32,668 nt of DNA from positions 1-32,668 of the forward strand of contig CAMOYN010000003.1 in the NCBI GenBank assembly GCA_946630035.1. Reading direction: 5' to 3'. The stretch is from an uncultured Lachnospiraceae bacterium (lineage in GTDB: Bacteria > Bacillota > Clostridia > Lachnospirales > Lachnospiraceae). Shown here in pieces: positions 20,184 through 32,668 of this stretch. How positions within the stretch are numbered: position 1 is the first letter of the stretch; every line of letters begins with the position of its first letter. The position numbers and the translations under genes were made by a program. The notes beneath the pieces are model-generated. The model ran no database searches and was not told where the DNA came from. It was given only the letters and a program-made list of their open reading frames with translations.

Positions 20184-22003
20184 TGCAGTCAGATTTATCA
20201 GAAAAATCATTGAGAAAAGGAACTATGCTCCCCTGGCTTCTGACGCTGGGGATTCTTATGGCCGTGGCAGGCACAGCCCTTCTGTACCTTTTCCGGGACT
20301 ACAGAGAAACCATCTTTGACAGTCAGAAGAATCAGCTGATTAACATTTCCGAGAGTGTAGCCAACAGTATTGTGGTTTATCTGGAAAACTATCAGAAGAC
20401 GGTAGAAAGCATTCAGCATCTGGAAGAATACCGGCAGGCAGAAGAGGAATTCCGGAAGGGAAATCATGGCCCGATGGAACAGCTCCTGGAAGAGGAACGA
20501 ACCGTGAGTCCAGAGGAAATCACCTGCCTGCGATATACAGACACCGCAAAGGAAAGCTGCTATGCAGGGACGGTAGATACGTTTCACCAGATCAGAAATA
20601 TGGGCAGCGGACGAGGCTTTAAGGAGATTTCCACCTGCAGTGATGCCGATGGAATACTGTATTTCTGCCTGAGGGCGGACGATGAAGATGGCGGGATTCT
20701 GGAACTGTATCTGCCGATCCGGAAGGTATATGAGCATACGGCTTCTTATATCCGCATGGGAGAAAACGGATATGTTATGATCAAAGACTCCGACGGTATG
20801 ATACTGATGCATCCGGTGGAGGCACAGATCGGCATAGATGTTCTGGGGGACCGGAAAAAAATCTACCCGGATCTGGATTATTCAGAACTGGAAATTCTGA
20901 TTGAACATCAGCTGGCAGGGGAGAGCGGGGTGGAGACCTACTATTCCTACTGGTGGGCTGACAATCCGCCCAGCCGGGTAAAAAAGGTTTCTGCCTATGT
21001 TCCCGCGTTTATCGGCAATGATTTCCTGAGTATCAGCGCCGTCATGGATTATGCAGAGATCTCGGCCCCGGTGCAAAATGTCGGCGTCCGGATCCTCCTG
21101 GTCAGCATTTTACTGGTGGTTACATCCCTGATTTTCCTCATGCTGATCTACCGGGTTTTTTCCCAGCAGGCGCAGATTACCAGAGAAAATGCCCGGCTGA
21201 AACGGATCAATGAAGAACTGGAGCGGCTGCATCAGCAGGAGGAGCAGCTGGCACAGCAGCAGCGTCTGCAGCTGATCGGTACCATGACCAGCGGAATTGC
21301 CCACGAGTTTAATAACCTTCTCACTCCGATCATGGGATACTCCGCCATGATTCTGGAGGGAATGGACAGGAACGACGATAATTACGAAGATATGAAGGAA
21401 ATCCTGGGATCGGCCGAAAAAGCGAAGTCCATCATCGACCAGATCACTCAGTTTTCCCGGAAAAATGCAGAGCAGATGGTTTCGCCGGTCCATGTGGGGG
21501 AGGCTGTCCGGGGAGCACTGATCATTGTAGAGGCGGCGAAGCCCCGCAATGTGAAGATGGAAACCCACCTGGAGATGGAGAAGGACCTGTGCATGGGAAA
21601 TACCGTCCAGATTCACCAGATGGTGACCAATCTCTGTAATAACGCGATTCACGCCATCGGAAAAGAGCCGGGAGTACTGAGCGTCCGCACAGACACACTG
21701 CGGCCGGAGACAGAGACAGATCCCTACTTCCACGGGAAGGAAAAGAAACTCTTCTACCGGATTCAGGTCACGGATACCGGATGTGGGATGGACGCCGCCA
21801 CCGCAGAGCAGATCTTTATTCCGTTTTTTACCACAAAAAAGCCCGGTGAAGGAACCGGGCTGGGACTGGCGATTGTACAGCGTCTGGTGGAAGCGCACCA
21901 GGGGCATATTCAGGTGACGAGTAAGCCGGGGGAAGGCACCACCTTCGTGATCTGGCTTCCGCTGGTGGATCCGACGGAAAATCAGTCCGTAAAGAAAGAA
22001 TGA
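20183..22003 (+). CDS. Membrane sensor histidine kinase with extracellular Cache-type domain
   Basis: The 606-residue kinase has TM1 at about 16-36, a long extracellular sensor (40-300) and TM2 at about 302-324. A Gln/Glu-rich coiled linker follows, then an H-box GIAHEFNNLLTPIMGY with His374 and an HATPase domain ending with DTGCGMD and GTGLGLAIVQRLVEAHQG. The sensor contains GENGYVMIKDSDGMILMHP (about 193-211), typical of membrane-proximal Cache/PAS-like folds that bind carboxylates and other small ligands. The H-box resembles NtrB and DctB, C4-dicarboxylate sensors. With the citrate transporter two genes away, a citrate or related acid sensor is plausible but inferred. The 3' end overlaps the convergent CYTH gene by 22 bp. 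Confidence 0.88.
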   Translation: MQSDLSEKSLRKGTMLPWLLTLGILMAVAGTALLYLFRDYRETIFDSQKNQLINISESVANSIVVYLENYQKTVESIQHLEEYRQAEEEFRKGNHGPMEQLLEEERTVSPEEITCLRYTDTAKESCYAGTVDTFHQIRNMGSGRGFKEISTCSDADGILYFCLRADDEDGGILELYLPIRKVYEHTASYIRMGENGYVMIKDSDGMILMHPVEAQIGIDVLGDRKKIYPDLDYSELEILIEHQLAGESGVETYYSYWWADNPPSRVKKVSAYVPAFIGNDFLSISAVMDYAEISAPVQNVGVRILLVSILLVVTSLIFLMLIYRVFSQQAQITRENARLKRINEELERLHQQEEQLAQQQRLQLIGTMTSGIAHEFNNLLTPIMGYSAMILEGMDRNDDNYEDMKEILGSAEKAKSIIDQITQFSRKNAEQMVSPVHVGEAVRGALIIVEAAKPRNVKMETHLEMEKDLCMGNTVQIHQMVTNLCNNAIHAIGKEPGVLSVRTDTLRPETETDPYFHGKEKKLFYRIQVTDTGCGMDAATAEQIFIPFFTTKKPGEGTGLGLAIVQRLVEAHQGHIQVTSKPGEGTTFVIWLPLVDPTENQSVKKE

Positions 22004-22452
22004 TTTTTATAGACGGTCCGGCTCATGTTGCTGTTGTGAAAACGGGGATCGTCTGTCACATCCTGCGCCATCCAGGCAGGAGGTACGAAGGCGACGGCCT
22101 CCTCCACGGAGGGAAATTCCACTTCGGCCATGGCGAGATCGTCGAAAGGCTCTTCGAAGAGATCCAGCTCTACGGTATAGGGTTCCAGTGGAATCAGAAT
22201 CCGCCTTTTCCGGATGACATTTCCTTCGGCTTTGGCTTTCAGCTGCTGGTAGGATTCCTCCGGCAGAGGCAGTTCAAATTCCTGGCGGACCATCTTACCG
22301 CCCCCCTTGACGGTGAGGAAATAGTCCTGATCCCGTCTTCGCACCCGCACGACCGGATCCTGACACAGATAGGCCTGCTCAATTTCATAAGAGTTGTATT
22401 GATCGAGATGATCCGGCAGAGCCGGAACCAGAAATTTACGTTCAATTTCCAT
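21982..22452 (-). CDS. CYTH-domain protein (inorganic triphosphatase/class IV cyclase-like)
   Basis: Read from ATG 22452 the protein has 156 residues. It begins MEIERKFLV, the diagnostic ExExK motif of the CYTH triphosphate tunnel fold. Alternating charged residues follow (VRVRRRDQDYFLTVKGGG, VRQEFELPLP, RKRRILIP, VELDLFEEPFDDLAMAEVEFP), as expected for strands lining a cationic/acidic tunnel. Bacterial relatives hydrolyse inorganic triphosphate or thiamine triphosphate, while a few make cAMP. The GGAGG site lies just before this start; the frame extends 11 codons upstream without a ribosome site. It overlaps the end of the kinase gene on the opposite strand. Confidence 0.88.
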   Translation of the reverse strand: MEIERKFLVPALPDHLDQYNSYEIEQAYLCQDPVVRVRRRDQDYFLTVKGGGKMVRQEFELPLPEESYQQLKAKAEGNVIRKRRILIPLEPYTVELDLFEEPFDDLAMAEVEFPSVEEAVAFVPPAWMAQDVTDDPRFHNSNMSRTVYKNHSFFTD

Positions 22453-22524
22453 AGTATTTTCCTCCCTGTAATGGATATTATACACCAGCCTTTGTTGATT
22501 TGAAATAAAAATATCGAGAACCCC

Positions 22525-22741: not shown

Positions 22742-23281
22742 ATGGATATCGTAATGACAGGATATGCGGGCCTGGCAGAGAGCATCCGGTTGGCAGTAAG
22801 TCACCGGGAAAAGCTGCTGGAAACGTTGCCTGCCTCCTACCTGGATGACTGGCTGTCATGGGAGGATGGGATCGCAGAGCCGGGAAATCCGAAAGACGGG
22901 AAGAATCCGGATTCTGTTTTCTGCTCCGCCCTGTGCTGCATTCCCATCGGGGAGGGCGGCCTCTTCCGGGCGCTCTGGCAGCTGGCAGAAGAACTGGAAC
23001 AGGTTCTGAACCGTCCGGCCATCGGACTTGCGGTGGTTCTTGACGATATCCCGATCTGCCAGGAGACAATTGAAATCTGTGAAAGATTGAACCAAAACCC
23101 ATACCAGCTGCCCTCCGGCGGCTGGCTTTTGGCGTTACCGGAAGGAAAATATCTTCCCGGGGAGACAGCGGGAAAAAGGATCGGAAGCATCACCGAGGGC
23201 AAGGCCCGGCGGATCTTCGGGAAAGAGGGGATACGCTATCTGGAGAAACCCCGTCAGGAAAATACGGATATTCCTGAATGA
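22742..23281 (+). CDS. Stand-alone AIR-synthase (PurM)-like C-terminal domain protein
   Basis: The 179-residue protein begins MDIVMTGYAGLAESIRLA. It contains EGGLFRALWQLAEEL, IPICQETIEICERLNQNPYQLPSGGWLLAL and IGSITEGKARRIF, ending YLEKPRQ. This order matches the C-terminal half of the AIR-synthase-related proteins often labelled hydrogenase maturation factor in clostridia. The normal N-terminal half with the Gly/Asp-rich ATP-binding region (G-x-G-x-D-D-A) is missing, and it is not present in any frame upstream. It may act as a partner domain, a degenerate paralogue or a regulator. It lies between the 40-residue membrane peptide and trmL, 19 bp before the latter. Confidence 0.65.
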   Translation: MDIVMTGYAGLAESIRLAVSHREKLLETLPASYLDDWLSWEDGIAEPGNPKDGKNPDSVFCSALCCIPIGEGGLFRALWQLAEELEQVLNRPAIGLAVVLDDIPICQETIEICERLNQNPYQLPSGGWLLALPEGKYLPGETAGKRIGSITEGKARRIFGKEGIRYLEKPRQENTDIPE

Positions 23282-23300
23282 AATCGTGCGGGAGGCAATC

Positions 23301-23801
23301 ATGGTAAACGTAGTTCTTTTGGAGCCGGAGATGCCGGCCAATACGGGAAACATAGGGAGAACCTGTGTCGCTACCGGTTCCCGGCTGCACCTGATCCGTC
23401 CTCTGGGATTTCAGCTGACGGATCGTATGATCAAGAGGGCGGGTCTGGATTACTGGCCCCAGCTGGATGTAACCGTCTATGATGATTACACCGATTTCCT
23501 GAACAAAAACCCCGGCGCCCATATCTATATGGCCAGCACCAAATCCCGGAATATCTACACCCAGCCGGAATACGAAGACGGATGTTATCTTATGTTCGGC
23601 AGGGAGAGCGCTGGCATCCCGGAGGAGATCCTCATTCGGAATCCGGAAAACACCATGCGGATTCCCATGCTGGGGGATACCCGCTCCCTGAATCTTGCCA
23701 ATTCCGTGGCCGTGGTGGTCTATGAAGCTTTGCGGCATCAGAATTTTGCCGGTTTGAATTTAAAAGGCGAACTTCATCGCCTGTCCTGGGATAATCAGTG
23801 A
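23301..23801 (+). CDS. trmL: tRNA (cytidine/uridine-34 2'-O)-methyltransferase
   Basis: The 166-residue SPOUT-family enzyme methylates the wobble ribose of tRNA-Leu using S-adenosylmethionine. Seen are VLLEPEMPANTGNIGRTCVATG near the N-terminus, LMFGRESAGIPEEIL in the middle and MRIPMLGDTRSLNLANSVAVVVYEALRQ-like sequence at the trefoil-knot SAM site (with ..ALRHQN here). ATG 23301 is preferred because GGGAGG lies 5 nt upstream; a GTG at 23286 is in frame but has no site. Length is standard. Confidence 0.92.
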   Translation: MVNVVLLEPEMPANTGNIGRTCVATGSRLHLIRPLGFQLTDRMIKRAGLDYWPQLDVTVYDDYTDFLNKNPGAHIYMASTKSRNIYTQPEYEDGCYLMFGRESAGIPEEILIRNPENTMRIPMLGDTRSLNLANSVAVVVYEALRHQNFAGLNLKGELHRLSWDNQ

Positions 23802-23887: not shown

Positions 23888-25297
23888 TTACAGATCCGAT
23901 TTTGCAGGTGACAGGCTGAAGATGAATTCCGTGCCCGCCCCCTCGGTGCTGATGACATCGATGGTTTCTTCGTGGGCTGTGATAATCTCTTTTACGATCG
24001 CCAGCCCGAGCCCGGTCCCTTTTTTATCCTTTCCCCTGGAGGAATCGCCTTTGAAAAAACGGGAGAAGATCTGTTTCTGATCCTCCCGGGAGATTCCTAT
24101 GCCGGTGTCCCGGATCGAAACAAAAACCTTATTTCGACGCTGACTGACACCGATGGTTATGGACGAATTATCATAAGAGAATTTTATGGCATTATCGATC
24201 AGGTTGTACAGCACCTGTTGTATCTTTCCCATATCCGCGTAGACACGGATGGACGCTTCTTCCAGAATCAGATCGAAGGAAATCTGACGCATCTGACATT
24301 TTCTCTCAAAGGTCTCACAGACATTTTTTATCAGAGGACAGATATCAAAGTCCGAATATTCCAGATGGAGATTTTTGCGGTTCAGGGAATTCAGCGACAG
24401 CATACTCTGGGTCAGGTTTTCCAGACGTTCTGTCTCATGAATGACGATCCGCAGATATTTTTCTTCATTTTCCCGGGGGATGATTCCGTCCAGGATGGCC
24501 GTCAGATACCCCTTGATCGAAGTCAGGGGAGAACGGAAGTCGTGGGATACATTGGCTATGAATTTTTTCTGATAATCTTCAGAATTGGCCAGCTCGCTGG
24601 CCATCAGGTTCAGCGTTTCCGCCAGATAACCCATCTCATCGTTTCTCGTTACCGGAATCTTGTGCTGAAGATTGCCGGAGGCATATTCCCCGGCCCCTTT
24701 GGTGATCCGGTCCAGGGGACGCATCACCAGAACATAGATCTCTATGTAAAGCAGAAAAGAGAACAGGAATACAATGAGTGCGGTGAGGTAGGAAGGCTGT
24801 AACATCGAATCACTGTAGGACAGAACATCCTCCAGCGGTGTATGGGCAATGACATATCCGTAGGTCTGGAAGTTGGCCGTGATGGGTGCCTGGACACTGA
24901 GCATGTCCTGAGAAAAGAAACCGTAGTAATGGCCGGTCTGATAATAACTCTGGGAGGCGGCCGGGTCGAAGTGCTCAATCGGGACCCCTTCCAGAGAGTT
25001 CTTTTCACTGGAATCAAAATGGATCATGCCATCGGTATCGATGAACCAGATCCGCATGTCTGCATAATCCTCCACTCCGCGAAGACGGTTACGGAAATCG
25101 GAGGGAATCTGTCCGCTGATATACAGAGAACTGTAATTGTCAGCGATTCGGATGGCTTGTGAATAAATACGGGAAGCCGCATTCCTCAGCGCCGCCCTGG
25201 TGGTCAGCCGGGCGGTGAAGATGGAGACAATGCCGAAACAAATCAATCCGAAAAACAGATATCCCAGGATAAAACGGGTATAGAGTGATCGCTTCAT
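23888..25297 (-). CDS. Membrane sensor histidine kinase (PhoR/WalK-like)
   Basis: The 469-residue kinase has TM1 at about 8-28, an extracellular sensor of about 140 residues, TM2 at about 170-192 and a HAMP domain (RPLDRITKGAGEYASGNL). An H-box FIANVSHDFRSPLTSIKGY with His252 follows, then an N-box (NLIDNAIKFSYD) and G-boxes (DTGIGISREDQ, KGTGLGLAIVKEI). It is co-directional with and 59 bp downstream of its response regulator gene, so the pair forms one operon. The extracellular domain (IWFIDTDGMIHFDSS) resembles a single Cache/PAS-like fold. The signal is unknown. Confidence 0.92.
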   Translation of the reverse strand: MKRSLYTRFILGYLFFGLICFGIVSIFTARLTTRAALRNAASRIYSQAIRIADNYSSLYISGQIPSDFRNRLRGVEDYADMRIWFIDTDGMIHFDSSEKNSLEGVPIEHFDPAASQSYYQTGHYYGFFSQDMLSVQAPITANFQTYGYVIAHTPLEDVLSYSDSMLQPSYLTALIVFLFSFLLYIEIYVLVMRPLDRITKGAGEYASGNLQHKIPVTRNDEMGYLAETLNLMASELANSEDYQKKFIANVSHDFRSPLTSIKGYLTAILDGIIPRENEEKYLRIVIHETERLENLTQSMLSLNSLNRKNLHLEYSDFDICPLIKNVCETFERKCQMRQISFDLILEEASIRVYADMGKIQQVLYNLIDNAIKFSYDNSSITIGVSQRRNKVFVSIRDTGIGISREDQKQIFSRFFKGDSSRGKDKKGTGLGLAIVKEIITAHEETIDVISTEGAGTEFIFSLSPAKSDL

Positions 25298-25356: not shown

Positions 25357-26058
25357 TTAACGGTTCTTGATTTCAAAACGATAACCAATCCCCCAGACAG
25401 TAGCCAGACGCCAGTTTTTGTGGTCACCCAGCTTTTCGCGAAGCCTCTTGATATGGACATCCACGGTGCGGCTGTCACCGACATATTCATATCCCCAGAT
25501 ATGATCCAGGAGCTGCTCACGGGTAAATACCTGATTGGGAGAAGAGGCCAGGAAATATAACAATTCCAGCTCTTTCGGCGGCATATCCAGATCTTTCCCG
25601 TTGAATGTGACAGAGTAATTTGTCAGATTGATAGTGAGGTCCGGAAGCTGGACAATCTTGGCGGGGACGCTGCCGGAGGGAGCCGGCTGCTGGGAAGTCC
25701 GCCGCAGCACCGCTTTAACCCGGGCCACGATCTCTTTACAGTCAAAGGGCTTGATGATATAGTCGTCCGCACCGAGTTCCAGACCAAGAACTTTATCAAA
25801 AACTTCCCCTTTGGCGGAAAGCATTATGATAGGGACCTGGGATTCCCGGCGGATCTCCCGACAGACCTGATAACCGTCCATGCCGGGGAGCATCAGATCC
25901 AGCAGGATCAGATCCGGCCCGAAGACATGGAAGGCGGTAAGTGCGGATTCCCCGTCCGCTACGGTCTTCGTAGCATAACATTCTTTCACCAGATAAAGAG
26001 ACAATAATTCAGATATATTGGGATCATCATCGACGATCAGTATTTTCTGTTTGGACAT
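25357..26058 (-). CDS. OmpR/PhoB-family response regulator
   Basis: The 233-residue protein has acidic residues at 10-12 (DDD), phospho-acceptor Asp54 (LILLD), Lys103 (IIKPF) and a winged-helix effector domain with PPKELELLYFLASSPNQVFTREQLL and WGYEYVGDSRTVDVHIKRLREKLG. It is encoded just before its kinase and after mutS2 on the same strand (57-bp gap), so some read-through from mutS2 is possible. Its GGAGGC ribosome site lies close to the start. Targets are unknown. Confidence 0.93.
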   Translation of the reverse strand: MSKQKILIVDDDPNISELLSLYLVKECYATKTVADGESALTAFHVFGPDLILLDLMLPGMDGYQVCREIRRESQVPIIMLSAKGEVFDKVLGLELGADDYIIKPFDCKEIVARVKAVLRRTSQQPAPSGSVPAKIVQLPDLTINLTNYSVTFNGKDLDMPPKELELLYFLASSPNQVFTREQLLDHIWGYEYVGDSRTVDVHIKRLREKLGDHKNWRLATVWGIGYRFEIKNR

Positions 26059-26115: not shown

Positions 26116-28488
26116 CTATTTGAAAGTGACAATGGTCACTCCGTAGCCACCTTCGTCGTATTCCGCTTCCCGGTAACCCGAAATGCGGGATTTATCCTTT
26201 CGCAGGAATTCTCTTACAGCACTGCGAAGTGTTCCTGTACCCCGGCCATGGATGATTCTGGCGGTGGGGTAGTGGGCCAGATAGGCATCGTCCAGATACT
26301 TGTCCAGAAGAGGAAGCGCTTCATCCACCGTTTTTCCGATCAGGTTCAGCTCTCCTGTGACGGATGAAGATTTTGCCATGCGGATCGCACCGGTGCCATG
26401 TTTCTGCTTCTTGCCCTCGTAGGAAACGGTGGCTTCCTGGAGCAGTTCCAGATCACTGATCTTGACATTCGAGCGAAGAATACCCATCTGGACGGTCACT
26501 TCTCCCTTGGCATTGGGGAGTGAGCTGATGGTACCGTTCAGACCGAGGGAAAGAACCTGGACGGCATCTCCGATATGGAAGTCTTCCGGAGCAGTGGTAC
26601 CTGTCTTTTTCTTCTTTTTTTGTCCCTGACTCAATTTGCGGTCATGCGCGTCAATCCGGCTGCGAAGACCGGCGCGCTCCGCCTCCATCTCACTGGTGAC
26701 CCGGACTCCCTGCTTGTTGAGATTCCGTATAACCCGGTCCGCCTCGTCTTTGGCATCCTGCAGGATATTGCGGGCTTCCTCTCTTGCCTGCCGCAGAATG
26801 GTTTCTTTGCGGTCTGCCATGTTATCCAGTTTGTTCTTTACTTCCTTCTGCATGCGGGAGGCTTCCGCCCGCATACGTTCCGATTCCTGCCGGTCTTTTT
26901 CCAGCTGAATCCGTTTCTCTTCCAGGTCAGAGATGACATCCTCAAATGCCTCATCCTTCTCGCCGATGGAGGCCTGGGCTTCTTCGATGATGTCCTCCAT
27001 CAGCCCCAGTTTGCGGGAGATGGCAAAAGCATTACTCTTACCGGGAACACCGATCAGCAGCCGGTAGGTAGGACGGAGGGTGGCTACATCAAACTCACAG
27101 GAAGCATTTTCCACACCCGGTGTGGAGAGAGCATAGATCTTCAGCTCCGAGTAGTGGGTGGTAGCGATCGTATGAATGTGTCTGCGGTGAAGTCTCTGTA
27201 AAATCGCCATGGCCAGAGCGGCTCCTTCCACAGGATCCGTGCCGGCCCCCAGCTCATCAAAGAGAACCAGAGATGCCTCGTCAGCTGAATTCAGAATCCG
27301 CACCGTATTGGTCATATGGGCCGAAAACGTGGAGAGATTCTGTTCAATGCTCTGCTCATCCCCTATATCCGCATAGACTTCATTGAAGATGCCGAGTTTC
27401 GAACCCGAATCCGCAGGAATATGCAGTCCGGACTGTCCCATCAGGGTAAAGAGCCCTACCGTCTTCAGTGTGACTGTTTTTCCGCCCGTGTTGGGACCGG
27501 TGATAACCAGAAGGTCAAATTTGCCTCCCAGCCAGAGATCGATGGGAACCACTTGCTTCGCAGGGAGCAGGGGGTGTCGTGCTTTTTTAATACGGATATA
27601 ACGGTCTTCGGAAAACAACGGTTCGCTTCCTTTGTATGAACGGGATAACTGCGCTTTGGCGAAGACAAAATCCAGATGGGTCAGTATGGTTACATCCGCG
27701 GCGATCTCTTCCGGATGCTCGGCGGCCCGGGAAGACAGTTCGGCCAGCACGGCTTCAATCTCTTTCTGCTCCTGGACAGAAAGCTCCTTCAGTTCGTTGT
27801 TCAGACGTACGATGGGCATCGGCTCGATGAAAAGGGTAGAGCCACTGCCGGACTGATCGTGAACCAGACCGGGAACCTGGGCCCGGTATTCCGTCTTCAC
27901 AGGGAGGCAGTATCTCCCGTCACGAACCGTGATAACACCATCCTGCAGCATGGTGCGGTGGCTGTTTAGAAGAGCGTTCAGCTGATCATGAATCCGGTTC
28001 TGCACACCACGCATATTTCTTCGCACTTTGGACAGACCGGGACTGGCATCATCACTTACTTCTTCTTCTGAAGGCAGACAGCGGGTGATCTCATTGTACA
28101 GAGAAGGCAGAGGCTCCAGTCCGGAAAAATATCCTTCCAGGGAATCCGGGTCTTCCCGGTCCTCTCTGTGACCGTAGGCCTTCACCCTTGCGGCAGCACC
28201 CAGCAGGGAAGCGACAGAAAGCAGTTCCCGGGGACTCAGTGAGGATCCCACAGAGAGTCGCATCAGAGAACCGCGGACATCGGTCACTCCGGCAAAGGAA
28301 AGGCTGCCTTTTCCGATCAGACGCATCTCGGCGTCACTCGTCTCTTTCTGGGCGGTGAGAATCTCGTTCCGGTCCGTCATCGGACGGAGCTCTTCGCACT
28401 TCTTTTTCCCAGAGGGAGAATGAGCAAGATCGGTTAAACGATGTATGATTTTATAGAATTCCAACGTATTATATATTTTCTCATTCAT
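26116..28488 (-). CDS. mutS2: MutS2/RqcU family ATPase with C-terminal Smr endonuclease domain
   Basis: MutS2 is a MutS paralogue without the mismatch-recognition domain. It suppresses recombination in some bacteria and, in Bacillus, acts on collided ribosomes. Read from ATG 28488 the protein has 790 residues. Core and lever helices are followed by Walker A GPNTGGKT (331-338), Walker B LVLFDELGAGTDP (about 408-418), a TTHYSELK switch and a long coiled-coil (about 500-630). A small beta domain and the Smr domain with LNLIGKTVDEA and IIHGRGTGTLR (about 710-790) end the protein. No good ribosome site precedes 28488; an in-frame TTG at 28524 is an alternative. Confidence 0.95.
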   Translation of the reverse strand: MNEKIYNTLEFYKIIHRLTDLAHSPSGKKKCEELRPMTDRNEILTAQKETSDAEMRLIGKGSLSFAGVTDVRGSLMRLSVGSSLSPRELLSVASLLGAAARVKAYGHREDREDPDSLEGYFSGLEPLPSLYNEITRCLPSEEEVSDDASPGLSKVRRNMRGVQNRIHDQLNALLNSHRTMLQDGVITVRDGRYCLPVKTEYRAQVPGLVHDQSGSGSTLFIEPMPIVRLNNELKELSVQEQKEIEAVLAELSSRAAEHPEEIAADVTILTHLDFVFAKAQLSRSYKGSEPLFSEDRYIRIKKARHPLLPAKQVVPIDLWLGGKFDLLVITGPNTGGKTVTLKTVGLFTLMGQSGLHIPADSGSKLGIFNEVYADIGDEQSIEQNLSTFSAHMTNTVRILNSADEASLVLFDELGAGTDPVEGAALAMAILQRLHRRHIHTIATTHYSELKIYALSTPGVENASCEFDVATLRPTYRLLIGVPGKSNAFAISRKLGLMEDIIEEAQASIGEKDEAFEDVISDLEEKRIQLEKDRQESERMRAEASRMQKEVKNKLDNMADRKETILRQAREEARNILQDAKDEADRVIRNLNKQGVRVTSEMEAERAGLRSRIDAHDRKLSQGQKKKKKTGTTAPEDFHIGDAVQVLSLGLNGTISSLPNAKGEVTVQMGILRSNVKISDLELLQEATVSYEGKKQKHGTGAIRMAKSSSVTGELNLIGKTVDEALPLLDKYLDDAYLAHYPTARIIHGRGTGTLRSAVREFLRKDKSRISGYREAEYDEGGYGVTIVTFK

Positions 28489-28593
28489 GTATAACAGTGT
28501 ACCATAACAGACGGAAAAGTGCAATCTGGTGCAAAAATGGGGATGACAAATAATGAAAACTGAATTATACTGTTGGTTATGGGGAGCGACTGC

Positions 28594-28652
28594 TTGACAT
28601 TGAACAGCGAAAGGTTATGAACCTGAGTACTATTTAATAACCTGGAGGAACT
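28594..28652 (+). promoter_or_regulatory. Promoter and leader of the HtrA-like gene
   Basis: A perfect -35 TTGACA (28594-28599), 16-bp spacer and TATGAA (28616-28621) precede the gene. AGGTTAT/ATAACCT (28612-28618/28636-28642) forms a dyad overlapping the -10, a possible operator or leader hairpin. TGGAGGAA provides the ribosome site. Confidence 0.6.
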
Positions 28653-28659
28653 CAGATCC

Positions 28660-30147
28660 ATGTCAGAAGCGAAGGGAAAGGATACTAAGAAGAAAGAAGA
28701 AATTGAAAAAGGAAACAGAGCATTTATCCGGGAGACAATTCAGGAGCCCAGAAAGAAAAGGAATATCCTGAAATCCATTCTTACGGCTTCCGCAGTTGGA
28801 ATTGCTTTCGGAGTGTCTGCCAGCCTGAGTTTTGCGCTGGCCGGCAACTGGTTTCCTCAGGTGTTGGATTATACGGCGGAAAGTACCAGGGAGAGTATTG
28901 CAATACCGAGGGATCAGACCCCCAGTTCAACCGCATTGGAAGATATTGCTACGACCTCGTCGGAAACATCGACGGAGACTGTGGCAGAAACTGTGGAAGA
29001 GACCTCGACAGAATCACTGGAAGAGACCTCGGCAGTGATCTCGACAGAAACGGAAAGTTCGGCCTGGGAAGAAACGGAAAATCTGCGGCAGGAGTATCTG
29101 AACGACCACATTGAAGCCGTGCTGGAATCCATGCTGGAGAACCTGGACAGTGAAGATTTTGAAGTAGACAACGGGGTAGTCACAGCCGACACCGCAGAAT
29201 GCATTGATCAGGTACAGCATATCACAAAAGAGCTGAAGAACAGCATGGTACTTGTCACAACCAATTCAGAAGAGGAAGACGTTTTTAATCACGCTTATGT
29301 CCGCAGTCAGGAGGCCTTCGGAGTAGTGCTGGCAGTGACCGGCCAGGATGTTCGGATCCTGACGGAATCCTATCTGCTGGAGGATGCTGACAGTGTACAT
29401 ATTGTGTTGAACAATAAAAAGATTTACGGAGCGAAACTGATCGGGATGGACCGCACCACGGGAATTGCCTGCGTCTCGATTCCCATCGAGACCATCGAAG
29501 CGGAGGATATGTCCTGCCTGAAGCCTGTCAGACTGGGAAATTCCTACCTGCTGGAGCCAGGCGATATCGTTGTGGCCCTGGGAAATCCGATGGGCTATGT
29601 TCCTTCGGTCGGCTGGGGGATTGTGTCCTATATCGAGAGAAATCATCAGGGAACAGATCTGATTTTCCAGCTGATCCAGACCGATATTGCCGGGGACACG
29701 GCGGCCACAGGGTTCCTGGTAAATACCCAGGGAGAGATGGTCGGCTGGATAAAACAGGATTACAGCGATGAGAGCCGTAAACACCTGATTGCCGCCTTAT
29801 CCATTTCAGATATAAAGGGACACCTGGAATCGATTACCAATGGCGGAGACCTGACCAGCCTGGGGATCCAGGTTCTGGAAATCAACCGGGAGATGAAGCA
29901 GGAACAGAACCTTCCCGGCGGACTCTATATTTCCCGCTGCATCAGTGACGGACCTGCCTTCAATGCAGGGATTCAGAACGGGGATATCATAATCCGGCTC
30001 GGCGACACCCGGCTGTCCACCCTGACCGACCTCCAGACTGCCCTGGCCAAGTGTGAGCCGGGAGAGACGGTGGATGCGGTCGTTTTGCGCGGGAGCCGAG
30101 GGGTCTATGCGGAACAGGTATTTGAAGTGACACTGAGCGCAAGATAA
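28660..30147 (+). CDS. HtrA/DegP-like membrane protein with PDZ domain, catalytic triad lost
   Basis: The 495-residue protein has a charged cytoplasmic N-terminus (1-36), one membrane helix (about 37-62) and a Ser/Thr/Glu-rich stalk (about 85-140). A trypsin-like domain (about 185-390) and a C-terminal PDZ domain (about 395-495, with GLYISRCISDGPAFNAGIQNGDII) follow. The protease scaffold is recognisable (LGNSYLLEPGDIVVALGNPMG, then QTDIAG, then LVNTQGEMVG). The catalytic positions are altered. The His of the T-N-x-H motif is Tyr238 (LTESYLL), the Asp of the D-x-x-T-D-L-A motif is Gly268 (DRTTGIA), and the Ser of GNSGGPL aligns with Ala349 (GDTAATGFL). It is therefore expected to be a non-proteolytic surface chaperone, scaffold or sensor. 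The gene is divergent from mutS2. Confidence 0.85.
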   Translation: MSEAKGKDTKKKEEIEKGNRAFIRETIQEPRKKRNILKSILTASAVGIAFGVSASLSFALAGNWFPQVLDYTAESTRESIAIPRDQTPSSTALEDIATTSSETSTETVAETVEETSTESLEETSAVISTETESSAWEETENLRQEYLNDHIEAVLESMLENLDSEDFEVDNGVVTADTAECIDQVQHITKELKNSMVLVTTNSEEEDVFNHAYVRSQEAFGVVLAVTGQDVRILTESYLLEDADSVHIVLNNKKIYGAKLIGMDRTTGIACVSIPIETIEAEDMSCLKPVRLGNSYLLEPGDIVVALGNPMGYVPSVGWGIVSYIERNHQGTDLIFQLIQTDIAGDTAATGFLVNTQGEMVGWIKQDYSDESRKHLIAALSISDIKGHLESITNGGDLTSLGIQVLEINREMKQEQNLPGGLYISRCISDGPAFNAGIQNGDIIIRLGDTRLSTLTDLQTALAKCEPGETVDAVVLRGSRGVYAEQVFEVTLSAR

Positions 30148-30237: not shown

Positions 30238-31179
30238 ATGAAATGGATACAGAGTATGCGGGAATCCGATCGGATTTCGGACATCTATCTTTGCAAAAAC
30301 AAGATTAATGCCAAGACGAAGGCAGGGAAAACCTACTATTCGTTACAGCTGCAGGACAAAACGGGGACCATCGATGCCAAGATCTGGGATCTGTCCAGCG
30401 GGATTGATCACTTTGAAACCATGGATTACATCCATATTGATGGCGATGTGACCACCTATCAGGGGAGCCTTCAGCTGAACATACGCCGGGTCCGCATCGC
30501 CCACGAAGGGGAGTATAACGCCGCCGATTATCTTCCGGCCACACCCTACGACCGGAAAGAGATGGCACGGAAACTCACGGAACTGGTGACCAGCGTGGAG
30601 GATCCCCATTACCGGGAACTGCTGTCCTCCTTTTTCCAGAAAGACCGTGACTTTGCGATCCGTTTCGTAAATCATTCTGCCGCTAAAAGTGTACATCACA
30701 GCTTCGTCGGAGGACTGCTTCAGCATACCCTTCGCGTGGCAGAACTGTGCGATTTCTATTGCAGACAATATCCTGCACTGAACAGGGACCTTCTGATCAC
30801 CGGGGCCCTCTGCCATGATATAGGAAAAACCAGAGAACTGGCAGCTTTCCCACAGAACGATTACACCGATGAAGGACAGCTGATCGGACATATTGTGATC
30901 GGCTATGAGATGGTCATGGAACGCATCCGGACCATCCCGGATTTCCCGGAGAAAAAGGCGGCGGAACTGGGCCATCTTATCCTTTCCCATCACGGAGAAC
31001 TGGAGTATGGCTCCCCCAAAAAGCCGGCTCTGATCGAGGCGATGGCGCTGCATTTCGCAGACAACACGGATGCAAAAATGGAGACCATGACAGAACTCCT
31101 CTCCGGCGCATTAAATGACACCGACTGGCTGGGATACCAGCGCCTGCTGGATACCAATATCCGCAAGACCAGCCGGTAA
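30238..31179 (+). CDS. yhaM: YhaM-family 3'-5' exoribonuclease (OB-fold plus HD domain)
   Basis: The 313-residue protein has an N-terminal OB-fold nucleic-acid-binding domain (about 14-90: KAGKTYYSLQLQDKTGTIDAKIW). A C-terminal HD metal-dependent domain follows, with His163 (GGLLQHTLRVAEL) and the His193-Asp194 pair (CHDIGK), then HLILSHHGELEYGSPKKP, typical of YhaM. The family degrades RNA from the 3' end and participates in mRNA turnover and processing. The start is ATG 30238 with only a weak ribosome site. The rlmD gene follows 87 bp later, and the two are probably cotranscribed. Confidence 0.92.
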   Translation: MKWIQSMRESDRISDIYLCKNKINAKTKAGKTYYSLQLQDKTGTIDAKIWDLSSGIDHFETMDYIHIDGDVTTYQGSLQLNIRRVRIAHEGEYNAADYLPATPYDRKEMARKLTELVTSVEDPHYRELLSSFFQKDRDFAIRFVNHSAAKSVHHSFVGGLLQHTLRVAELCDFYCRQYPALNRDLLITGALCHDIGKTRELAAFPQNDYTDEGQLIGHIVIGYEMVMERIRTIPDFPEKKAAELGHLILSHHGELEYGSPKKPALIEAMALHFADNTDAKMETMTELLSGALNDTDWLGYQRLLDTNIRKTSR

Positions 31180-31266: not shown

Positions 31267-32668
31267 ATGGAAAAAAATACAATTCTACAGATACACATAG
31301 AAGATATGACAGAACAGGGGGAAGGGATCGGCAAAGCCGATGGCTACCCCCTTTTTGTAAAGGACACCGTCATCGGAGATCTGGCCGAAGTAAAAGTCAT
31401 CAAAGATAAAAAGACATACGGATACGGGAAACTGCTCCGCATCCTGGAACCATCCCCCGACCGGGTAACTCCCCGCTGCCCCGTAGCCGGCCCCTGCGGA
31501 GGCTGCCAGCTGCAGAACCTGAATTATAGCGCACAGCTGGAATTCAAACGAAAAAAAGTGGCAAATCATCTGAGAAGACTGGGCGGATTTCAACAGTTAG
31601 AGGTCAACCCGGTAATCGGCATGGAGCACCCCTGGGAATACCGGAACAAATGCCAGGTACCCGTGGGCCGCGGAAAAGACGGCCAGCCTGTGATGGGATT
31701 TTATGCCGGGAGAACCCACAGCATCATAGAAACAGAACAGTGCTGCCTGGGAGATCCGGTCAACGAGAAAATCCTCTCCCTGATCCGGGAGCATATGATC
31801 CGGTGGAAGATAGAACCCTATGACGAGAAGAGCGGCAAAGGCCTGATCCGCCATATCCTGATCCGCCAGGGCCGGAAAACCGGCCAGATCATGGTCTGCC
31901 TTGTGATCAACGGCCAGCGGATATCCCACGCAGAACAGCTGGTGGACGAGCTGAAGAAAATCCCCGGTCTCACCTCGGTAAGCCTAAACATTAACAGAGA
32001 AAAGAATAATACCATACTGGGACAAAAGCTGATTTATCTGTACGGAGAGGAATACATAACCGACGGGATCGGAGACATTGCATTTCGAATCTCCCCTCTG
32101 TCCTTCTTTCAGGTAAACCCCGTACAGACAGAAAAACTATATGCCAAAGCCCTGGAATTCGCCGGGCTCACCGGCGAAGAAACCGTCTGGGATCTTTATT
32201 GCGGAGCCGGGACCATATCCCTCTTCCTCGCACAACACGCCAAACAGGTATACGGCGTTGAAATCGTACCCTCCGCAGTGGAAAACGCCCGGGAAAACGC
32301 CAGACAGAATCACATCACCAATGCACAGTTCTTCCTGGGAAAATCCGAAGAAGTCCTCCCGGAACACTACGATCAGATATACCGGGAAACCGGAAAACAC
32401 CTCCAGGCAGACGTAATCGTCGTAGATCCTCCCCGCAAAGGCTGCGAACGCCAGCTGCTGGAAACCATGCTGGCCATGTCCCCCCAACGGATCGTATATG
32501 TCAGCTGCGACTCCGCCACCCTCGCCCGGGACCTGAAAATCCTTTGCAGCGATGGAAATTATGAAATCAAAGCAGTACAGCCCGTCGACATGTTCCCGCA
32601 AACCGTGCACATCGAGACGGTATGTCTTTTGTCCAAACTATCTGAGGCAAAGCATCATATCAGCGTTC
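31267..32668 (+). CDS. rlmD: 23S rRNA (uracil-1939-C5)-methyltransferase RlmD-like, incomplete at right edge
   Basis: At least 467 codons are in the window and the frame is still open at the end. An N-terminal TRAM domain (about 1-60) is followed by the [4Fe-4S] ligands C71, C77 and C80 (CPVAGPCGGC), with a likely fourth Cys in TEQCC. The SAM-binding motif is DLYCGAGTISLFLA, and DPPRKGC and the catalytic-Cys region YVSCDSATLARDL come next. This family transfers a methyl group from S-adenosylmethionine to uracil C5 of rRNA; TrmFO-like or RlmCD substrates are also possible. The usual C-terminus is HxETVxLLxK. Here HIETVCLLSK is followed by more in-frame sequence (LSEAKHHIS), consistent with the extra C-terminal domain of many clostridial homologues. 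Confidence 0.92.
   Translation, partial: MEKNTILQIHIEDMTEQGEGIGKADGYPLFVKDTVIGDLAEVKVIKDKKTYGYGKLLRILEPSPDRVTPRCPVAGPCGGCQLQNLNYSAQLEFKRKKVANHLRRLGGFQQLEVNPVIGMEHPWEYRNKCQVPVGRGKDGQPVMGFYAGRTHSIIETEQCCLGDPVNEKILSLIREHMIRWKIEPYDEKSGKGLIRHILIRQGRKTGQIMVCLVINGQRISHAEQLVDELKKIPGLTSVSLNINREKNNTILGQKLIYLYGEEYITDGIGDIAFRISPLSFFQVNPVQTEKLYAKALEFAGLTGEETVWDLYCGAGTISLFLAQHAKQVYGVEIVPSAVENARENARQNHITNAQFFLGKSEEVLPEHYDQIYRETGKHLQADVIVVDPPRKGCERQLLETMLAMSPQRIVYVSCDSATLARDLKILCSDGNYEIKAVQPVDMFPQTVHIETVCLLSKLSEAKHHISV

Follow-up and report, generated by a model that had tools for sequence, protein, structure and literature searches.

The Locus

The window, i.e., the whole stretch of DNA that was analysed, is 32,668 nt long. 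An open reading frame with an ATG start (28660-30147, + strand, as for all features of this gene given below) encodes a protein of 495 amino acids, here called pseudo-HtrA. A ribosome site, GGAGG, was read directly at about 28644-28648, ~11 bases before the ATG. Further upstream lies a sigma-70-type promoter, ATGACA-17-TATACT (28543-28571), with 10 of 12 matches. It is conserved in the genus: TGACAAA and ATTATACT are invariant across five members. The promoter-like matches in the window (four found, 2.1 expected) are not clearly above chance; hence, the promoter is backed by its conservation and not by its strength. This corrects the strong promoter named in the first-pass annotation.

The divergent neighbor is mutS2 (26116-28524, - strand; TIGR01069, 954.8 bits). 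Downstream of it, profile matches identify an OmpR-family response regulator, MtrA/YycF-like (25357-26058, -), followed by a HAMP-HisKA sensor kinase that is most WalK-like (23888-25297, -). A YycF search of the genome gave its best match on another contig (283 bits) and not at the neighboring response regulator; none of the matches reaches the 340-bit cut-off. The next gene downstream of pseudo-HtrA encodes a yhaM-like OB + HD protein (30238-31179, +) and adjoins it in nearly all loci of the family. It is followed by rlmD (31267-32667, +; TIGR00479, 480 bits), which reaches the end of the window. Near the kinase genes, two small open reading frames (22000-22503, +, and 23190-23738, -) are ~40-50% conserved in genus relatives, with no Pfam or NCBIfam match for either.

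Domain Organization of Pseudo-HtrA

The protein is laid out like an HtrA: a single membrane helix near the N-terminus is followed by an acidic Thr/Ser linker and then by the trypsin-like and PDZ domains. The helix (approximately residues 36-62, 28765-28845) lies at the hydropathy maximum, has a basic flank on its N-side and is the one hydrophobic segment present; the membrane anchor described earlier is indeed maintained. It is preceded by a cytoplasmic juxtamembrane motif, F-I-x-E-x-I (residues 22-28, 28723-28743), of which E25 is found in 96% of the family copies. The extracytoplasmic linker (residues 63-181, 28846-29202) was delimited by its Thr/Ser/Glu-rich composition, with 43 of the 68 residues checked being Thr, Glu or Ser, and differs in length and sequence among family members.

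The degenerate trypsin-like (S1C) domain spans residues 182-390 (29203-29829), as judged from PDB matches and from the Pfam domain Trypsin_2 (PF13365, residues 221-362, 4.6e-12). The PDZ domain (residues 395-482, 29842-30105; PDZ_2/PDZ_6) carries an LGI carboxylate-loop signature and a GDII motif. It too has been maintained, as previously suggested: PDZ_2 (PF13180) matches residues 401-481 at 6.3e-12, and the landmarks G402, G421, D442 and R477 are invariant in alignment A1 and at or near 100% in the 157 family copies discussed below. Compared with the PDB, the family profile matched solved DegP and DegQ structures up to 1.8e-58, with both domains covered. An AlphaFold model built from a two-row alignment was poor, with a mean pLDDT of 44 in the protease domain. 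The best NCBIfam model is TIGR02037 (degP_htrA_DO), at 140.9 bits for a cut-off of 416.2, and the protein falls below the curated cut-offs of all NCBIfam HtrA models. In one genus member (G001, L041:2652-4487), pseudo-HtrA is 612 amino acids long and has a Ser/Ala-rich insertion of more than 100 residues, which separates the degenerate protease domain from the PDZ core.

Loss of the Catalytic Triad

At the position of the catalytic His stands Tyr238 (29371-29373), in ILTESYLL aligned to ILTNNHVV. The Asp position is occupied by Gly268 (29461-29463), in DRTTGIAC aligned to D..TDLAV, and the Ser position by Ala349 (29704-29706), in GDTAATGFL aligned to PGNSGGPL. The oxyanion loop PGNSGG reads GDTAATG, so that GNSGG is lost, and nearly all family members have a catalytic loop shortened by one residue. 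Three alignment routes agree on the triad columns: phmmer to solved HtrAs, a comparison of the family profile with the PDB and a MAFFT alignment that includes 35 triad-intact HtrAs. The by-eye alignment of the first-pass annotation, from which these three residues had been read, was therefore correct. A shifted alignment that restores a triad is ruled out by the agreement of the three routes and by the lack of any conserved nearby His or GNSGG.

The pseudo-HtrA locus was read in 157 related genomes. None of the 157 syntenic copies retains the catalytic His, the full triad or the GNSGG motif. Gly is found at the Asp position in 114 copies, and Asp in 12; the Ser position holds Gly in 69, Ala in 43 and Ser in 18, none within GNSGG. 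The absence of the triad is thus conserved throughout, but the replacement residues vary. Since no single residue has become fixed at the substituted positions, the old active site was released and not remade into one conserved new site.

Nine of ten genus members have an orthologue with 40-53% identity; across the family, which is most likely the Lachnospiraceae, identity is ~25-33%. Members of this large clostridial family are abundant gut commensals. The distribution was surveyed in 200 genera of the family, using genomes at least 95% complete together with the genome of the window. A strong, mostly full-length match was present in 140 genera. Among the remaining 60, a very diverged, triad-less copy lies directly beside yhaM in 15; pseudo-HtrA is thus retained in 155 of the 200 genera sampled. 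No copy was found beside yhaM in 42 genera, and in three, yhaM itself was not found.

His-Asp-Ser is found both in the unlinked HtrA paralogues that these genomes encode and in the HtrAs of other families. As a control, 21 tandem HtrA pairs outside the family were inspected, and 41 of the 42 copies keep the three residues. This rules out a general drift of duplicated HtrAs: triad loss is unusual for duplicates, and a family-wide loss is exceptional. The single deviating copy (G302, L171:2584-3765) has Ser, Asn and Asp at the His, Asp and Ser positions and a GNDGG loop. Its tandem partner is triad-intact, both members of each of the other 20 pairs have the three residues, and this loss is independent and apparently recent.

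Origin and Selective Constraint

In a tree computed without the triad columns, a branch with 100/100 support separates the pseudo copies from the other sequences. The tree alone does not resolve which active lineage is the sister of this clade. Outside the family, the mutS2/RR/HK - htrA - yhaM - rlmD locus (RR, response regulator; HK, sensor kinase) carries a triad-intact HtrA. Two families (f21 and f22) have the gene order of the window, with HK, RR and mutS2 leftward and htrA, yhaM and rlmD rightward; in three others (f24, f7 and f2), mutS2, RR, HK, htrA, yhaM and rlmD follow each other in one direction. The one-way order also occurs in seven genomes of the family itself; hence, both arrangements are present within it.

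Six residues (P310, D333, K386, E390, N394 and R477) are common to the pseudo form and the syntenic triad-intact HtrAs, and are much rarer in the other active HtrAs of the family. D333 is found in all pseudo copies and in 13 of 13 syntenic HtrAs. A cytoplasmic motif before the membrane helix, Y/F-x-x-E/Q-x-I-K, is likewise common to the pseudo copies and the same-locus triad-intact HtrAs across families, and its conservation suggests a putative cytoplasmic contact. Judging from synteny, shared residues and the N-terminal motif, pseudo-HtrA most likely descends from the active HtrA of the same locus. As that locus holds a triad-intact HtrA with these residues outside the family, the triad was lost in place, apparently a single time, close to the root of the family.

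In close pairs of pseudo-HtrA, dN/dS (NG86) was 0.08-0.12, compared with 0.11-0.17 in the active paralogue and 0.02-0.04 in yhaM. Pseudo-HtrA is constrained, yet looser than its housekeeping neighbor yhaM, and its within-genus values rule out pseudogene decay. The constraint is unevenly distributed. The mean entropy of the trypsin-like domain is 2.43 in pseudo-HtrAs vs. 1.42 in active HtrAs; the values for the PDZ domain are closer (2.29 vs. 1.93).

The first-pass annotation had proposed a selected non-proteolytic role, and the evidence agrees with it: a family-wide loss of the triad, a single clade, a low dN/dS, a conserved synteny and a separate HtrA-type protease in the same genomes. From its sequence, pseudo-HtrA is almost certainly non-proteolytic and functional.

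Association with the Two-Component System and Proposed Role

An orthologue of the neighboring response regulator was identified in 40 of 40 near-complete genomes with pseudo-HtrA (67-80% identity) vs. 16 of 42 without it (66-78%; one case at 55% was counted as absent), a co-occurrence with a Fisher p of ~1e-10. After correction for relatedness using a YhaM tree, ~5.3 independent pairs agree and none opposes, with a median p of 0.06. The tree-corrected association is borderline, i.e., suggestive and not decisive.

The reading that we prefer, and hold to be about as probable as its contrary, is a non-catalytic, PDZ-bearing accessory of the adjacent two-component system, acting in envelope stress. 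Its parts differ in strength. Binding of peptides through the PDZ domain is somewhat probable, while a joint action with the neighboring two-component system falls a little short of an even chance. Pseudo-HtrA would face outward on its one membrane helix. Its intact PDZ groove would bind exported proteins at exposed C-termini or at misfolded segments, with no cutting, and the remodelled cleft of the former active site could contribute to this binding. Through its membrane helix and the cytoplasmic F-I-x-E-x-I motif, the protein might then touch the sensor kinase of the mutS2-RR-HK unit and in this way report or tune envelope stress.

Several points speak against the link with the kinase. The response regulator is still present in the 16 genomes that have no pseudo-HtrA, and in most family members the pseudo-HtrA and kinase units are divergent and not co-transcribed. 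The adjacency dates far back, and common descent, not function, may account for it. A more specific form of the accessory reading is less probable than not: the family would have turned a two-component-linked HtrA into a dedicated non-cutting receptor of envelope stress that signals to the WalK-like kinase, with the PDZ domain and the dead protease domain together forming a ligand-sensing module. No description of such a protease-to-receptor conversion was found in the literature searched.

Active HtrA and Alternative Readings

A separate active HtrA, raised in the first-pass annotation as the possible target of a decoy, is a regular feature of these genomes. A strong Trypsin_2 match of the HtrA type lies elsewhere in 40 of 40 near-complete genomes with pseudo-HtrA and in 41 of 42 without it, and a His-Asp-Ser paralogue was read in nine of nine genus relatives that carry the pseudo form. 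No active HtrA was found in the source assembly of the window, which is 67% complete; given the copy in all nine relatives, this absence probably reflects incompleteness. The active paralogue is unlinked to the pseudo-HtrA gene and has a different, long N-terminus. In a single-protein scan across named genomes, only one distant HtrA was found, with its triad intact. One near-complete genome of the family (G148) has no Trypsin_2 match whatsoever, neither an active HtrA nor pseudo-HtrA.

A non-catalytic partner of this active HtrA, be it a subunit, an activator or a decoy, is the best of the alternatives, though an unlikely one. The two proteins would form mixed trimers or compete for substrate, as for MamO and MamE. 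The regular presence of the active form favors it, as do the triad-intact paralogues read in both genus and family, and a precedent exists in MamO, which promotes MamE-dependent proteolysis although its triad does not work (PMC4794232). However, the active HtrA is near-universal whether or not pseudo-HtrA is present, and so its co-occurrence gives no pairing signal; the lack of linkage and the dissimilar N-termini also count against a partnership. On co-occurrence, the accessory of the two-component system is preferred to a partner of the active HtrA.

A stand-alone envelope chaperone or holdase, which would prevent the aggregation of exported proteins with no dedicated signalling partner, is slightly less likely again. 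HtrA proteins are generally able to bind unfolded clients without cutting them, and pseudo-HtrA has retained both the PDZ domain and its homology to the HtrA fold. The association with the response regulator in 40 of 40 genomes would nevertheless be left without a reason, and the fast evolution of the protease domain fits a loose binder and not a conserved client site.

Non-standard catalysis, whether by a Thr or a displaced Ser nucleophile or by a different enzyme activity housed in the former cleft, is highly improbable. Some copies do have a Ser or Thr close to where the nucleophile used to be, and MamO, with a Thr at this position, was initially taken for a protease (PMC4794232); but the clade conserves neither a nucleophile nor a general base nor the oxyanion glycine, and its loop is shortened. 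Even more improbable is a decaying remnant heading for loss, to which the 42 genera with no copy beside yhaM and the 15 with very diverged copies might point, since the copies read have full-length open frames, dN/dS is low, the promoter is conserved and 155 of the 200 genera keep the gene.

Comparison with Known Systems

Within the literature that could be searched, bacterial HtrA pseudoproteases are documented mainly in magnetosome islands, and no report of the present clade was found in the open-access literature, most subscription journals being outside this coverage. In magnetotactic bacteria, HtrA pseudoproteases have arisen independently in three taxa (PMC4794232). Pseudo-HtrA resembles MamO and inactive MamE in being a degenerate-triad HtrA homologue kept by selection, with an active HtrA-type protease in the same genomes. 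In MamO, on the other hand, a di-histidine site binds metal, and a transporter domain lies at the C-terminus (PMC4794232). Pseudo-HtrA has a PDZ domain and no transporter domain, comes from a different phylum, lies outside any magnetosome setting and owes its origin to a loss that took place in situ, at an old housekeeping/two-component locus. The NCBIfam MamE model gives it only 45.9 of 800 bits. HtrA pseudoproteases are already known from MamO; the clade described here is found in ~155 of 200 sampled genera of one clostridial family.

With DegP, DegQ, DegS and HtrA (MEROPS S1C), pseudo-HtrA shares the domain order TM - trypsin-like - PDZ, but it has neither the catalytic triad nor GNSGG. Domain searches label such proteins trypsin-like peptidases, a label that is probably wrong for enzyme function. 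A regulatory output can survive the loss of catalysis: a serine-dead HtrA keeps one such output, for which the PDZ domain is needed (PMC6387919).

The accessory membrane proteins of WalRK-type systems, known or presumed kinase modulators that differ between organisms, are similarly encoded beside a two-component system, although none of those considered here is an HtrA relative (PMC9210968). As noted above, the genome has a better YycF match than the neighboring response regulator. A parallel in context is mycobacterial pepD, an HtrA-like gene directly downstream of mprAB, the deletion of which raises sigE (PMC3062566). In both cases, an HtrA-like membrane protein is encoded beside a two-component system. 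PepD/MprAB is itself linked to envelope stress (PMC3062566), a link that is a proposal for pseudo-HtrA. Moreover, PepD is an active protease, whereas pseudo-HtrA is triad-less, and the pseudo-HtrA gene and the kinase unit are usually transcribed away from each other. Sister families still carry the triad-intact form at this locus, which allows a direct before/after comparison. As the triad was lost in place, the locus would provide a clean test of a non-cutting role for an HtrA beside a two-component system.
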